From Tepidisphaeraceae bacterium (GTDB lineage Bacteria; Planctomycetota; Phycisphaerae; Tepidisphaerales; Tepidisphaeraceae), in NCBI GenBank assembly GCA_035998445.1, contig DASYHQ010000041.1, positions 124,001 to 188,000 on the forward strand: DNA of 64,000 nucleotides, given 5' to 3'. Of the stretch, positions 1 through 63,386 are shown one piece after another. The position numbers and the translations under genes are program-made. Every line of letters begins with the position of its first letter. The first letter of the stretch is position 1. The notes beneath the pieces were generated by a model. That model saw nothing but the letters and a program-made list of their open reading frames with translations, was not told the origin of the DNA and did no database searches.

Positions 1-1672
1 TCGCCCGCGCGATCGCCAGGCGCTGCCGTTGCCCACCCGACAGGCTGCTGCCGCGCTCGGCCAGCACGGTCTGGTACCCGTGGGGCATCTGCTCGATGAA
101 CTCGTGCGCCTGGGCTAACCGGGCCGCCGCCTCGACGGGGCCACCGCTCATGTGCGGGCGGCCGTAGGCGATGTTGGCCTCAACGGTGTCGCTGAACAGG
201 TACGTCTCCTGGAACACGAACGCGACCTCGCTGCGCAGCTGGCTGAGCTCGCACTGCTTGATGTCCATGCCGTCGACGCGGATCGTGCCGTGCTGGGGGT
301 CGTAGAAGCGGGCCAGCAGGTTCACGAGCGAGGTCTTGCCCGCGCCGGTCGGCCCGACGATCGCCACTACGCTGCCGCCGGGCACCTCGAAGTCCAGGTC
401 GCGCAGGACCGGCTTGGCGGGGTCGTAGCCAAATGTGACGTTCTCGAAGCGCACGTGCCCCGGCCCCGGGGGCAGCGGGCAGCACTCGGGGTGCTCGACC
501 ACGGTCGGCGGCGCCATCAGGATCTCGTACAGGCGGCGCGCCGAAACGATGGCCGCCTGGTACTGCTCGTTGATCGCGCCAACCTGCTGTAACCGGCCCA
601 GAATGACGCCCATGCTGGCGCCCAGGATCAGGAAGTCACCCGCGTTCAGCTTGCCCTTGATGATCAAGATGCCAGCGGCCAGGAACAGTGTGAGGTTGCT
701 GGCGGTCGCGATGCCGCGCACGACGGGTGTGAAGTTCGCAAACAGCCTGATGCGGCTTTGCACGCGCCCGAAGAACGAGTCGAGGTTCTCACCGTACTTG
801 GCGATCTCCTTCTCCTGCGTTGCGAACGCCTTCACAACGTGAACGCCAGCGATATTTTCAGTGATTAGCGAGACGTTGCGGTCCTCGGCTTCCATCACCG
901 CCTGTCCGGCCGGCTGCGCCTTCTTGCCGAACCGCAAGATGTACCACGTCCAGATCGGCAGCGGCGCCAGCGCCAGCAGCGCCACCCAAGGCGACCGCGA
1001 CAGCAGCAGGATGATGTTGCCCGTCACCATCATCACGATGTCCAAGCTGATCAGCAGCGCGGTCTGGAGGAACGCGCGAACGTTCTGCAAATCGGTCAGC
1101 GACCGGTTGATGAGCTGGCCGCTGGAGAGCGCATCGTGGAACTTGAATCCGACTCGCTGCACCTTGTCGTAGACGGCCTCTCGGAGGTAGTAGACCATCG
1201 TCATGCTCATCTTCATCTCGAAGGTGATGCGCAGGTAGCGCAACACGAGCAGGCCGAGGGTCAATCCGATCAGCAGCATCACGACCGACCGCAGCGCGAC
1301 GATCTGCGGGTCATCCGAGGCCAGGAACGCCCAAAAGCTCTGGCCGGTCTGCGGCTTGGCCACCAGTTGCTGAATCCGGTCTACGATGCTGCCACTGACG
1401 CCGATCGACAGCACCTCGGCCGTGTTGCCGAGCACCACGAACGTACAGCAGAGGAACGCCAGCCCCTTCACCGGCGACAGGAAACGCAGCATCCACGAGA
1501 ACAGCTGCCAGTTCGAGACCTTCTTGGCCTCGTACAGCAACACGTCCGGTGGCACCGACGGATCGGTGGCGCTGGCTTGGGATACAAAGGGTTGATTCGA
1601 AACAACTGCGGATTTGGTCGCCACGGTGCCTACGCCATCCTTGGGGAATGCGGGATACGCTACCTTGCTCAC
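1..1672 (-). CDS. ABC exporter, permease-ATPase fusion (C-terminus cut by window edge)
   Basis: Half-transporter of the type I exporter (MsbA-like) family: a six-helix permease domain fused to a nucleotide-binding domain, acting as a dimer in the inner membrane. Reading leftwards, the permease spans roughly residues 60-330. The ATPase follows with Walker A GPTGAGKTS (bases about 332-357), and the signature LSGGQ lies at bases 29-43, so Walker B and the H-loop are outside the window. The start is uncertain: no ATG lies in the frame; GTG at 1672 is used here and TTG at 1684 or 1678 are alternatives. The substrate cannot be read from the sequence. It is distinct from the second exporter at 30508. 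Confidence 0.9.
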   Translation of the reverse strand, partial: MSKVAYPAFPKDGVGTVATKSAVVSNQPFVSQASATDPSVPPDVLLYEAKKVSNWQLFSWMLRFLSPVKGLAFLCCTFVVLGNTAEVLSIGVSGSIVDRIQQLVAKPQTGQSFWAFLASDDPQIVALRSVVMLLIGLTLGLLVLRYLRITFEMKMSMTMVYYLREAVYDKVQRVGFKFHDALSSGQLINRSLTDLQNVRAFLQTALLISLDIVMMVTGNIILLLSRSPWVALLALAPLPIWTWYILRFGKKAQPAGQAVMEAEDRNVSLITENIAGVHVVKAFATQEKEIAKYGENLDSFFGRVQSRIRLFANFTPVVRGIATASNLTLFLAAGILIIKGKLNAGDFLILGASMGVILGRLQQVGAINEQYQAAIVSARRLYEILMAPPTVVEHPECCPLPPGPGHVRFENVTFGYDPAKPVLRDLDFEVPGGSVVAIVGPTGAGKTSLVNLLARFYDPQHGTIRVDGMDIKQCELSQLRSEVAFVFQETYLFSDTVEANIAYGRPHMSGGPVEAAARLAQAHEFIEQMPHGYQTVLAERGSSLSGGQRQRLAIARA

Positions 1673-12095: not shown

Positions 12096-12670
12096 TTCTG
12101 TAGGACAGGCATTCCTGCCTGTCTCTCCCCCCGTATTCATTCTTCGGTCTTCTGTGGCAAAGGCATTCTTGCCTGCGTCTCTTATTTGGTGGGACAGACA
12201 TTCTTATCTGCCACGCAGCGCTAGCTGAGATGGCGAAGAGGCAGAGACGCGAAGGCGCGAAGGACGCGAAGGCGGACGCGAAGAAATGCGGGTGGTGTTG
12301 CGCCAACCCCGCGTCTTCTGCGCAGCGCGGGCGTAGAGATGGATAGCGTGCTCTTTGACAACTGAATAGCCGGCATCGTGGACATCCGCGTTCGCGTCGC
12401 GACCTACCGATGTTGCACAATGGTGCAAAATGGTGCACGGATTCGCGTTTTGCCTTACCCAGACCGCCGCCGCGAAGCGCACCTTCTTCTTCTTCGCGCT
12501 CCTTCGCGTCCGCCCTTCGCGTGCTTCGCGTTCGTATTTGCTTTCGTGGAGGCGCAATAGAGACGACGGAAAAGAGACACAGGCAAGAATGCCTATGCCA
12601 CAGTCAAGAGAATACGGGGGGAAACCGGACGGGGGGAGAGACAGGCAGGAATGCCTGTCCTACAGAAGAG
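12096..12670 (+). repeat. Modular mirror-symmetric composite element, copy A
   Basis: A 575-bp non-coding element filling most of the gap before rnpA. Outer modules 1 (GGACAGGCATTCCTGCCTGT), 2 (GGCATTCTTGCCTGCGTCTC) and 3 (GGGACAGACATTCTTATCTG) come in order from the left, then a GCGAAGG-rich module 4 (12246-12285). The core (about 12330-12475) follows. Modules 4, 2 and 1 then return as reverse complements (12492-12670). The core has TGCTCTTTGACA (12349-12360), like an rRNA-leader boxA, and three copies of a TGGTGCA-type word. The second copy is at 61069-61687 with its core on the other strand. ORFs through it are Arg/Cys-rich and not credible. Confidence 0.85.
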
Positions 12671-16044: not shown

Positions 16045-16085
16045 ACGGGGGATAGACAGGCAAAAATGCCTGTCCTCCAGAAGAG
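16045..16085. repeat. Solitary module 1 of the composite element
   Basis: GACAGGCAAAAATGCCTGTC hairpin flanked by CTCCAGAAGAG, matching the outermost module of the composite elements at 12096 and 61069. A second hairpin-forming GC-rich stretch (GCCCTC...GAGGGC) lies just before it, behind uppS. Confidence 0.75.
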
Positions 16086-39670: not shown

Positions 39671-39822
39671 AGAGAGACAGACAAGAATGTCCGTCCCACC
39701 ACTCAGACAAGGACAGAGGAGAGACACCGGCAGGAATGCCTGTGCCACAGAAGAGAGAAGAATTCGGGGGGAGAGGCAGACAGGGGGAGAGACAGGCAGG
39801 AATGCCTGTCCTACAGAAGAAA
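39671..39822. repeat. Half composite element: modules 3, 2, 1
   Basis: Three hairpin modules in the order 3 (GACAGACAAGAATGTCCGTC), 2 (CCGGCAGGAATGCCTGTG) and 1 (GACAGGCAGGAATGCCTGTC), each followed by the CCAC, CCACAG or CTACAGAAGA tail seen in the right halves of the full composite elements. Core and left half are absent. Confidence 0.85.
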
Positions 39823-60149: not shown

Positions 60150-60290
60150 CCGTGGCATGGGCGTCCCGCCCATGCGTGTGGATTGAAATGGACGTCCCAT
60201 TTGTTCCAGATCCGCTTCGACCAAGCTACCAAACCAAAAACAAAATCTCCTGACCCAACTCAGTGCATGGGCGAGACGCCCATGCCACGG
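60150..60290. repeat. Family A inverted-repeat element, copy 3
   Basis: 141 bp, the left arm with CCC in place of TCT in the loop. It occupies half of the 315-base gap before aat; the rest shows nothing recognised. Confidence 0.88.
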
Positions 60291-60455
60291 CCAATTCACC
60301 GACGTCCACACCTTGATCCGCTTAGCGTGCTTGGCGTTCTTGGCGCGAGAACGAAGCCAACCGCGATCACCGGAGGTCTCAGGGGTTCGCCGCATGGACG
60401 CCAGCCGCCGCCCTGCATAAAGTACGTGAACTTCGGAACCTGGCCCCCATCACAG

Positions 60456-61046
60456 ATGAGCGACACGCTTCGCCTGGACCCCGAGACGTTGCTGACGGCT
60501 TACGCGCAGGGCGTCTTCCCCATGTCCGACCGTGACGGCACGGTGCGGTGGTACACCGCCGACCCGCGCGGCGTGCTGCCGTTGGACGAACTGCACGTCC
60601 CGAAAACCCTCGCCACCCTCGTGCGGCAGCAGAAGTTCGACGTCCGCATCAACTACGACTTCGAGGCCACGATGCGCGGCTGCATGAGCAACCGTGAGGA
60701 AGGGTCCTGGATCAGCGACGACCTGATCGCCGCCTACAAACGCCTGCACGAACTGGGCTTTGCACACAGCGTCGAGACGTGGTTGAACGGCCAACTCGTC
60801 GGTGGCCTGTACGGCGTCAGCCTTGGTGGGGCGTTCTTCGGTGAAAGCATGTTCCACCGCGTCAGCGATGCCAGCAAGGTCGCGCTCGTCCACCTCGTCA
60901 ACCGCCTGAACGAACGGGGCTACCAACTGCTCGACACTCAGGCCTCCACCGAACACCTCCGCCGGTTCGGCTGCATCGACATCCCCGCCAGCCAATACCT
61001 GCGCCTGCTGAAGTCCGCGATGAAGAAGCAGTGCGTGTTCGGCTAG
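60456..61046 (+). CDS. aat: Leucyl/phenylalanyl-tRNA-protein transferase
   Basis: Adds Leu or Phe from tRNA to proteins with N-terminal Lys or Arg, marking them for ClpS-ClpAP. Family motifs are AYAQGVFPMSD, the MRGC block, TWISDD-like SWISDDLIAAYKRLHELGFAHSVETW, GGLYGVSLGGAFFGESMF and LLDTQASTEHLRRFGC. Length is 196 residues, normal for the short form. clpS, the next step in the same pathway, is the next gene, convergent across the composite element. Confidence 0.95.
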   Translation: MSDTLRLDPETLLTAYAQGVFPMSDRDGTVRWYTADPRGVLPLDELHVPKTLATLVRQQKFDVRINYDFEATMRGCMSNREEGSWISDDLIAAYKRLHELGFAHSVETWLNGQLVGGLYGVSLGGAFFGESMFHRVSDASKVALVHLVNRLNERGYQLLDTQASTEHLRRFGCIDIPASQYLRLLKSAMKKQCVFG

Positions 61047-61068
61047 CGCCACGCGTCGCCGCCTCCCT

Positions 61069-61687
61069 CTTCTGTAGGACAGGCATTCCTGCCTATCTCT
61101 CCCCCCGGCTTTCTCTCCCCCGTATTCTGTGGCACGGGCATTCTTGCCTGCGTCTCTTATCTTCCAGTGGGACGGACATTCTCGTCTGCCCCTCCTCGCG
61201 CGATCGTTGCGCTTTCATCGACGGAGAAGAGACGCGAAGGCGCGAAGCCGCGAAGGGATCGCGAAGGACACTCTTCCACCCGGTGCGGCGACGGCGGTAT
61301 GGGTAAGGCAAGACCCGAATCCGTGCACCATTGTGCACCATTTTGCACCATCGGGTGAGGACGATGGAGGTTTATGCGCGAAGCGCGTCGGCTATTCAGT
61401 TGTCAAAGAGCACGCTATCCATCTCTACGGACGCGCTGCGCAACTGAGGCAGATTCAGCGCAACGCTCCTCGTTTTCCTTCGCGTCCTCCTTCGCGCCTT
61501 CGCGCCTTCGGGTCTCTTCATTTCTAAAAAGTAGAGACAGACAAGAATGTCCGTCCCACCAGGAAGATGAAAGACAGAAAGAGACACAGGCAAGAATGCC
61601 TGTGCCACAGAAGAGCGGCAAAGAGAATACCGGGGGGAGATGAATACGGGGGGACAGACAGGCAGGAATGCCCGTCCTACAGAAGAG
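61069..61687 (-). repeat. Modular mirror-symmetric composite element, copy B
   Basis: A 619-bp element with modules 1, 2, 3, 4, core, 4', 3', 2', 1', the fullest version. The core (about 61295-61425) is in the opposite orientation to copy A, with the boxA-like word at 61401-61412 on the minus strand and the TGGTGCA-type words at 61322-61352. It is the whole content of the 700-base gap between aat and clpS apart from 60 bases. Confidence 0.87.
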
Positions 61688-61747
61688 GGCGACGCGGCTC
61701 CGGGCGTCGAACGCAATGGCGCGCGTGGCCCATCGCCTATTCGCCGA

Positions 61748-62122
61748 TCACTTCTCCGCGGGCTCGATTGTCACGGTCAAGCCCTTGCTCTCGAACTGGT
61801 CCTTGTACAGCTCGGCCCGTTCCTTGTGGGTGACCAGCAGCAGCGTCAGGCCGGTGTCGTTGGCCTCGCGCATGCGGGTCTCGGCGTCCTGTTTGTTCAG
61901 GGGGGTCAGCTCGACAATCGTGTCGATCACGAACTTGAAGTCGTTCTTGTCGTCGTTGTGCAGCAGCACCTTCCACGGCGGCAGCATGCCGGGGGGCTTG
62001 CGCTTTGGGGCGCTCTTGGTCGACTTGCGCGGCTTGGTCGCGGTGGCGTTGCCGCCCTCGCTGGGTGCTGCCGGCGTGGGGGCGCCGGCGTCGCTTGGGG
62101 ATTCCTTCGGTTCGTCTGCCAT
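61748..62122 (-). CDS. clpS: ATP-dependent Clp protease adaptor ClpS
   Basis: N-degron recognition adaptor. The ClpS domain begins at about residue 48: PPWKVLLHNDDKNDFKFVID, with the NDD ligand-binding site, then TIVELTPLNKQDAETRMREA, and GLTLLLVTHKERAELYKDQF. A 45-residue Lys/Pro/Ala-rich extension precedes it, longer than in E. coli. The ATG at 62122 follows CGGGCTAAGGAGGAAGGCTG, a strong site. Confidence 0.95.
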   Translation of the reverse strand: MADEPKESPSDAGAPTPAAPSEGGNATATKPRKSTKSAPKRKPPGMLPPWKVLLHNDDKNDFKFVIDTIVELTPLNKQDAETRMREANDTGLTLLLVTHKERAELYKDQFESKGLTVTIEPAEK

Positions 62123-62243
62123 ACAGCCTTCCTCCTTAGCCCGCGTTGGGAACGGGCCACGGTTCACCTGTTCATTATAGCGATGCGCGACCGACTTGGC
62201 ACCGCAATAGTTCTCGCGGCACCCGCTGCGATATAGTGGGGCC

Positions 62244-63386
62244 ATGCACGTCGCGACGAACGAGCCCAGCCGACTGATCGCCGGCGCCATGAGCGGCACG
62301 AGCGCCGATGGCGTGGATGTCGCGATCGTGCGAATCGTCGGCAGCGGCATGACGATGCGGGCGACGATCGTCCACCACCTCGCCCATGCGTTCGATGCGT
62401 CGTTGAAGCAGAAGATTTTTGCGATTCGCGGCAGTGGCACGGTCGCGTTGCGAGATTTAGCGGAACTGGCACACGACCTCTCGCTGGCCTACGCCACCGC
62501 CATCAACGCGGCGTTGCGAGCGGCCCACCTGTCGGCCGACGCGCTGACGGCTATCGCGGCGCACGGGCAGACGTTGTTCCACGCGCCGCCCCTGACGATT
62601 CAATGGCTCGACCCCGCGCTGCTGGCCGCCCGCGTGGGGTGCCCCGTCGTCAGCGACTTCCGCCGGGCCGACTGCGCCGCCGGCGGGCAGGGGGCGCCGC
62701 TGGTGCCGTTCGCCGATTACATTGTATTTCGCGATGCCGCGAAGCACCGCGTGCTGTTGAACATCGGCGGCATCGCCAACCTGAGCTCCATCCCCGCAGG
62801 TGGGGCGATCGACGACGTGATCGCGTTCGACACCGGGCCGGGCAACTGCATCAGCGATCATCTCTGTCGGCAGCTCGACCCCACCGGGCCGGGTTACGAC
62901 GCGAACGGCGCGCGGGCGATGGCGGGGCAGGTGGACGCGCGTCTCGTGGAGTCGGTGATGGCCGCCGACTACTTTCGCCAGCCCCCGCCCAAGAGCACGG
63001 ACGTGCCGACGATGATCGACCTGTTCGAGCGCGCCCGCGCCACGGCTGGAACGCCGTTGCCCGCCGCCGACCTGCTCGCCACGGCGTGCGCGATCACGGC
63101 AGCGTCGATCCTGACTGCCTTTCGCGCCGCGGTGGGCGACGCGCCCGCCGAGTGGGTGGTCAGTGGCGGCGGGGCGAACAACGGCGCGATCATGCGGGCG
63201 CTGGGGCAGCGCGTCCCGACATTGCTGCGCAGCGAAGACCTCGGCGTCGACGCCGCCGCGAAGGAGGCCCTGGCCTTCGCCCTCCTCGGCGCCGCCACGC
63301 TCGACGGCGAACCGGGCAACCTGCCGAGCGTCACCGGCGCATCGCGCCGCGTGGTGGGGGGAACGGTCACGCCCAGGCCCGGCTGA
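62244..63386 (+). CDS. anmK: Anhydro-N-acetylmuramic acid kinase
   Basis: Peptidoglycan recycling kinase: 1,6-anhydro-MurNAc to MurNAc-6-phosphate. Family motifs are IAGAMSGTSADGVDVAIV, AHGQTLFHAPP, SDFRRADCAAGGQGAPLVPFADY, LLNIGGIANLS and VVSGGGANNGAIMRAL. Length is 380 residues. Its presence indicates turnover of a peptidoglycan cell wall. It is divergent from clpS. Confidence 0.95.
   Translation: MHVATNEPSRLIAGAMSGTSADGVDVAIVRIVGSGMTMRATIVHHLAHAFDASLKQKIFAIRGSGTVALRDLAELAHDLSLAYATAINAALRAAHLSADALTAIAAHGQTLFHAPPLTIQWLDPALLAARVGCPVVSDFRRADCAAGGQGAPLVPFADYIVFRDAAKHRVLLNIGGIANLSSIPAGGAIDDVIAFDTGPGNCISDHLCRQLDPTGPGYDANGARAMAGQVDARLVESVMAADYFRQPPPKSTDVPTMIDLFERARATAGTPLPAADLLATACAITAASILTAFRAAVGDAPAEWVVSGGGANNGAIMRALGQRVPTLLRSEDLGVDAAAKEALAFALLGAATLDGEPGNLPSVTGASRRVVGGTVTPRPG

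Follow-up and report, generated by a model that had tools for sequence, protein, structure and literature searches.

A boxA-headed cassette of about 175 bp, enclosed in nested hairpins of the REP type, is dispersed in ~74 copies through the 5.84-Mb genome of this Tepidisphaeraceae bacterium, and two of the composites lie in the 64,000-nucleotide stretch of DNA analysed here (the window). The composite is read as a nested REPIN-type non-autonomous element, the cassette of which is probably transcribed and left untranslated with its boxA shielding the RNA from Rho, a reading to which we give a probability slightly above one half (about 0.55). The original prediction recognised the nesting and the boxA, both of which stand, while missing the copy number, the identity of the shells as REPs with a candidate transposase and the presence of multi-copy boxA in other genera.

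Organization of the composites in the window

A mirror arrangement of modules had been proposed at 12096-12670, with a copy at 61069-61687 keeping the same order, a full right arm and its core on the other strand, and the sequence bore out both. In copy 1 the inverted arms at 12090-12134/12629-12673 are 100% complementary over 45 nt, those at 12152-12183/12572-12603 are 94% complementary and the arms of module 4 pair too. The full module order is 1-2-3-4-core-4'-3'-2'-1', with the right arm of copy 1 being without module 3' and copy 2 having every module (Table 1). Copy 1 sits 60 nt before rnpA among tandem genes and copy 2 between the convergent aat and clpS-like genes. The products of aat (Leu/Phe-tRNA transferase) and of the clpS-like gene flanking copy 2 (window 60183-62440) both belong to the N-degron pathway.

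Table 1. Modules, cores and related elements in the window
Feature	Position	Strand	Remarks
Module 1: REP hairpin, TTCT-GTAG foot + GACAGGCA/TTCC/TGCCTGTC	12096..12123	+	Outer element boundary
Module 2: REP hairpin, GTGG foot	12150..12177	+	
Module 3: REP hairpin, GTGG foot	12189..12212	+	
Module 4: (CGCGAAGG)n arm	12246..12288	+	
Core cassette	12297..12469	+	~74 genome copies; consensus and block conservation computed
Core hairpin GTTGCGC...GCGCAGC	12297..12326	+	Arms >99% conserved, loop 67%
boxA TGCTCTTTGACAA	12349..12361	+	Match extends to 12369; own 16S leader reads GTTCTTTGACAAGTGAATAG
Word array ATGTTGCA/ATGGTGCA/ATGGTGCA	12410..12437	+	10-bp period
Module 4'	12495..12534	-	
Module 2'	12575..12603	-	
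Module 1'	12640..12667	-	Right boundary
Second composite	61069..61687	-	Both arms with all shells
Core of second composite	61292..61464	-	Its boxA at 61392-61411 (-)
Half arm 3'-2'-P'-1'	39676..39812	-	Coreless
Solo module 1	16055..16077	-	Diverged

REP hairpins of the shells and their probable nesting as REPINs

Modules 1-3 are related REP hairpins of common design (TTCT or similar, a GTAG/GTGG foot, an 8-bp stem and a TTCC/TTCT loop), each occurring as an inverted pair with the paired arms facing inward. All three have a short palindrome with the GTAG (or GTRG) tetranucleotide at its foot, and GTGG variants of GTAG-tagged REPs are on record (PMC3733652). Module 1 occurs in 197 copies genome-wide at up to three mismatches with none for the reversed control, such that an inverted REP pair is present as one unit at high intergenic copy number as in REPINs and BIMEs. 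A few copies of module 1 were found in relatives, confined to three of 60 related genomes.

The order of the modules is close to invariant. In the 59 core composites, 198 adjacent same-arm module pairs follow the order 1-2-3-4 toward the centre and 2 do not, and an unbiased 830-kb sample (contig C61, part of C18 and the window) gave 72 in order against 2 out of order, so that the random order elsewhere that would have told against the original prediction was not seen. The sample also contained coreless arrangements, namely 1-1' pairs, 1-2-3..3'-2'-1' stacks and 4-4' pairs, and the same shells enclose at least four other contents besides the core, or nothing. Alternative centres include an arm of GCGCCAAGG type (C61:95930, 104610), a CGTCATCCTGAGG hairpin (C61:216190) and, within module 4, a GGCATGGGCGTCTCGCCCATGCC hairpin at C61:100800. 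Repeat families centred in the same shells, with CGCCAAGG arms, the CGTCATCCTGAGG hairpin or a GGCATGGGCGTCTCGCC hairpin, were noted at C61:95930-96380, 104610-105050, 216190-216660, 100800-101150 and 139230-139530.

Since the same shells elsewhere hold other contents or none, the nesting is of REPIN type, and the shells are very probably nested REPINs. The repeated insertion of one element into another that had been suggested is likewise supported by the coreless pairs and the other shell contents. The likeness to REPINs and BIMEs with a RAYT extends to the GTAG/GTGG foot with its short palindrome, the inverted pairs, the many intergenic copies and a Y1 transposase gene inside a REP pair (see below), while the present element stands apart in that its several REP types are nested in a set order, with a conserved cassette at the centre. 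REP insertion inside longer palindromes is known for REP dimers in A. variabilis and H. neapolitanus, there with the dimers sitting inside one longer palindrome (PMC3733652). The composites share with MITEs their short length, lack of coding capacity, inverted termini and many copies, but differ in that no target-site duplication was detected and the termini are REP hairpins.

Copy number and genomic context of the core

The boxA 20-mer has 2 matches in the window against 0 in 100 shuffled sequences, and 60 in the genome at up to two mismatches with 0 for the reversed pattern. Fifty-nine of the 60 belong to one core of ~175 bp and the remaining match is the leader of the organism's own 16S gene, which was detected in one copy. 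Using the 3' end of the core as query gave 73 matches, three of them by chance without a core and 15 representing cores that the boxA search had missed, bringing the total to ~74 (59 via boxA and 15 via the 3' block) where the earlier note knew of two. The matches to boxA fall about evenly on both strands (28/32), and as such the position of the copy 2 core on the opposite strand is nothing special.

With genes called by a codon model, 50 of the 65 scorable cores (77%) lie in convergent gaps, often 10-100 nt from both stop codons, with 13 in tandem and 2 in divergent gaps. Convergent gaps make up 17% of all gaps (p ~1e-22 for the enrichment of cores). Published REPs likewise avoid divergent gaps (PMC3733652), and compared with these the convergent bias of the cores is extreme.

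Conservation and fold of the core cassette

The core consists in order of a hairpin, a 15-nt block, boxA, a variable spacer, two to three 8-bp words at a 10-bp period and a conserved 3' block. Conservation, computed over 70 cores picked without using boxA, changes sharply along the cassette: boxA is conserved at 98.9% per base, the hairpin arms at 99.5%, the intervening block at 97% and the second word at ~98%, against 62% for the spacer that follows boxA and 67% for the loop of the hairpin. A decaying repeat would lack such sharp steps, and therefore the blocks are not debris; they are either selected or required for copying, with selection favoured because the same shells hold other contents. 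The invariance of the hairpin arms makes covariation uninformative, with no compensatory changes seen within this genome. The word ATGGTGCA occurs over 59 copies 145 times downstream of boxA, once upstream and never antisense.

The composites fold as concentric stems far better than shuffled sequences (z -16 and -26). The suggestion of one RNA with concentric stems is in this way upheld as a fold, but such a fold follows from stacked inverted pairs. No significant Rfam match was found in the composites, and two to three 8-bp words at ~10 bp are unlike the regular repeats of 24-48 nt with unique spacers that define a CRISPR array.

Identity of boxA and search for promoters

BoxA-Nus antitermination is known from rRNA and from a small number of other long RNAs that are not translated, CRISPR arrays among them. 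The boxA of the core, UGCUCUUUGACAA followed by GAATAG, matches the leader of the organism's own 16S gene (GTTCTTTGACAAGTGAATAG) at 18 of 20 bases, and the same boxA is present in its own 16S and 23S leaders, in keeping with the likeness to rRNA-leader boxA that had been claimed for the core. In relatives the extended boxA TCTTTGACAANNGAATA is found in the leaders of 16S and 23S genes and immediately before an RNase P RNA, which supports reading the motif as boxA. In L204 (G026), for instance, it lies at 1500-1524 and precedes the gene for RNase P RNA (RF00010, 1524-1906) by a few bases. Several relatives, seen in L252 (G007), L251 (G018), L206 (G031) and L349 (G004), also have a boxA-like motif in a type I-E CRISPR operon, where it separates cas6e from cas1e, with cas6e confirmed by TIGR01907 (L252) and cas1e by TIGR03638 (L206), the other cas calls being made by eye.

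A promoter scan of the composite in the window found no sigma-70-like promoter, and when the sequence preceding boxA was examined in 59 own cores, the best sigma-70 match was no better than in shuffled sequence. The cassette has in common with the rRNA leader boxA the sequence UGCUCUUUGACAA + GAATAG and an upstream hairpin, but it exists in ~74 copies, is followed by short word repeats instead of rRNA and has no recognised promoter. Likewise, boxA stands ahead of an untranslated repeat-containing array as in boxA-protected CRISPR arrays, whereas the words here are of 8-20 nt with irregular or 10-bp spacing at dispersed loci and no repeat-spacer structure was seen.

Mobility and a candidate transposase

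The best-preserved copies (L030/L052/L027, L033/L043 and L025/L034) are alike from the foot of module 1 to the foot of module 1' and have unrelated flanks. In L030 the likeness stops early, modules 2' and 1' being fused, and on the left side of L025 there is an inner arm of the right type, a visible exchange of arms. Among the copies the arms and the core show little correlation (Mantel r 0.15 and 0.00), which we attribute at least in part to recombination between the copies, exchange of arms being directly visible (as in L025). With arms and core not clearly correlated, the case for copying as a unit rests on few recent pairs, and the nesting may alternatively have arisen independently at many sites. 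No target-site duplication of the kind expected of MITEs was found, identity between flanks being 4.54 against 4.49 for swapped flanks. Insertion into terminator hairpins was considered and rejected, the flank tests giving the same result as for swapped flanks.

A Y1-type protein is encoded inside a module-1 pair on contig C64 and matches the model for REP-associated tyrosine transposases at E 2.4e-21. Its score to NF047646 is 76.2 bits, just under the curated cut-off of 80, and that to Pfam Y1_Tnp is above cut-off. Of eight Y1 proteins it is the only one to lie within a module-1 pair, and as in known RAYT genes it is flanked by the same REP on both sides. The REP transposase frame (L121:1369-3027) stays open across a module-1 REP and continues into a ThiE-like frame upstream, for a total of 552 aa. 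A CT beside GTAG is the recognition and cleavage context shown for TnpA-REP/RAYT (PMC8266576) and the feet of the modules match it; the shells may be transposed by this candidate RAYT.

boxA-headed loci in related genomes

DNA searches found nothing like the whole core in 60 related genomes, and its 5' pattern had 0 matches in viral contigs. In GTDB genomes the 5' pattern matched one Rhizobiales contig, which was rejected as being without all other core features. Among the genomes searched the core is unique to this one.

In four other genera of the same family dispersed boxA loci occur at 3 to over 50 per genome, recognised by a motif of 18 nt which in G008 mostly reads CTATTTGACAA instead of TCTTTGACAA. 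In G008, YTMTTTGANAANYGAATA is matched exactly 53 times and, with one mismatch allowed, 68 times, and the loci are typically followed by several hundred non-coding bases before the next predicted gene, while G004 and G010 have several non-rRNA boxA loci each (three in G010). Two loci of G004 have a perfect TTGACA-17-TATAAT upstream of boxA, one of which was checked by promoter scan, and all three G010 loci have good sigma-70 matches upstream. In G021, 51 copies of a 28-bp palindrome were found, about half of them followed by boxA. Many of the boxA-less palindrome loci of G021 (L270-L299) read CTGCGCCATGAC there, possibly a start codon preceded by GGGAG, and the palindrome was rejected as an RNA stem, the stem comprising the outer 5 bp only with a sixth pair without covariation.

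The words after boxA in the relatives are short, genome-specific and mostly one-stranded. Counted downstream, upstream and antisense, TG[CA]GCACCT of G008 gave 72, 2 and 0, ACGAA[CG]CCA of G021 gave 53, 0 and 0, and GGACC of G010 gave 28, 0 and 2, with the one-sidedness of the G004 words being less clear. Each genome's word is essentially missing from, or non-directional in, the loci of the other genomes. At 20 of 30 loci of G008 (L254-L265, L300-L319) TTATCCACAA with a consensus DnaA box was observed downstream of boxA. No flanking inverted arms beyond chance were detected at the relatives' boxA loci, and as such the shells are special to the genome of the window; REP shells had been considered for the loci of G021 and G008 and were rejected, inverted arms being no commoner there than by chance.

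Discussion

In the mechanism proposed, module 1 bounds the unit, which would run from TTCTGTAG to CTACAGAA, and a RAYT (REP-associated Y1 transposase) would be expected to cut at the module-1 feet. Later elements would have inserted mid-way in earlier ones, 2 in 1, 3 in 2 and 4 with the core in 3, and whole stacks would then have been copied as units and reshuffled by recombination. For the own cores we infer transcription, Nus recruitment and a role for the words. When core RNA is made, boxA would recruit NusB-S10 and RNA polymerase would resist Rho across the untranslated words, which as a first guess are most likely a repeated binding site in RNA.

It is somewhat unlikely that the composite is purely a genomic parasite, an old nested REPIN with a boxA copied from an rRNA leader and no host function, the conservation of which would reflect the needs of transposition or gene conversion. 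The strong mobile-element features of the shells, the convergent-gene gaps where insertions harm least and the known REP insertion within longer palindromes (PMC3733652) would all suit a parasite, but the shells hold other contents equally well and so do not depend on the core for their mobility, the conserved blocks of the core are sharply bounded by variable segments and the boxA-headed loci of other genera are without flanking inverted repeats beyond chance. The shells could also be copying a site that acts in DNA, with the palindrome, 18-mer, 15-nt block and direct repeats bound by a chromosome-organising or replication protein and the likeness to boxA incidental, which we regard as unlikely. 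The occurrence of the 18-mer in correct orientation in the 16S and 23S leaders and upstream of RNase P RNA, the position of the motif downstream of sigma-70-like promoters in G004 and G010 and the confinement of the words to one strand downstream of boxA speak against such a site, whereas the own cores without recognised promoter, direct repeats with a ~10-bp period equal to one helix turn and the G021 28-bp palindrome with about half of its copies lacking boxA would be in keeping with it.

A single structured RNA of concentric stems that lies between convergent genes and either blocks transcription in both directions or forms an mRNA 3' end is quite improbable. It would explain why the composites fold so much better than shuffled sequence and why 77% of the cores lie between convergent genes close to both stop codons, but the modules occur separately with other centres, so that the fold is no single designed unit, and a boxA in a terminator would oppose termination in one direction.

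Returning to the reading of a nested REPIN that carries a boxA-headed cassette, the shells form a record of which REP families became active before which others, and they pose the testable question of why new REPINs settle mid-way inside old ones. The core would be this genome's version of the arrays of boxA and short words seen without shells in other genera of the family. Tentatively, the multi-copy loci of the family may amount to a new class of non-coding transcription units, composed of boxA and one-stranded genome-specific words. The words would be replaced between genera while the boxA head is kept, and in the present genome nested REPINs would have captured the units and carried them to ~74 sites. 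If this is true, bacteria of five genera, with tens of dispersed boxA-headed loci per genome, would be protecting a large set of non-coding transcripts, and the boxA head would allow these to be found by sequence.
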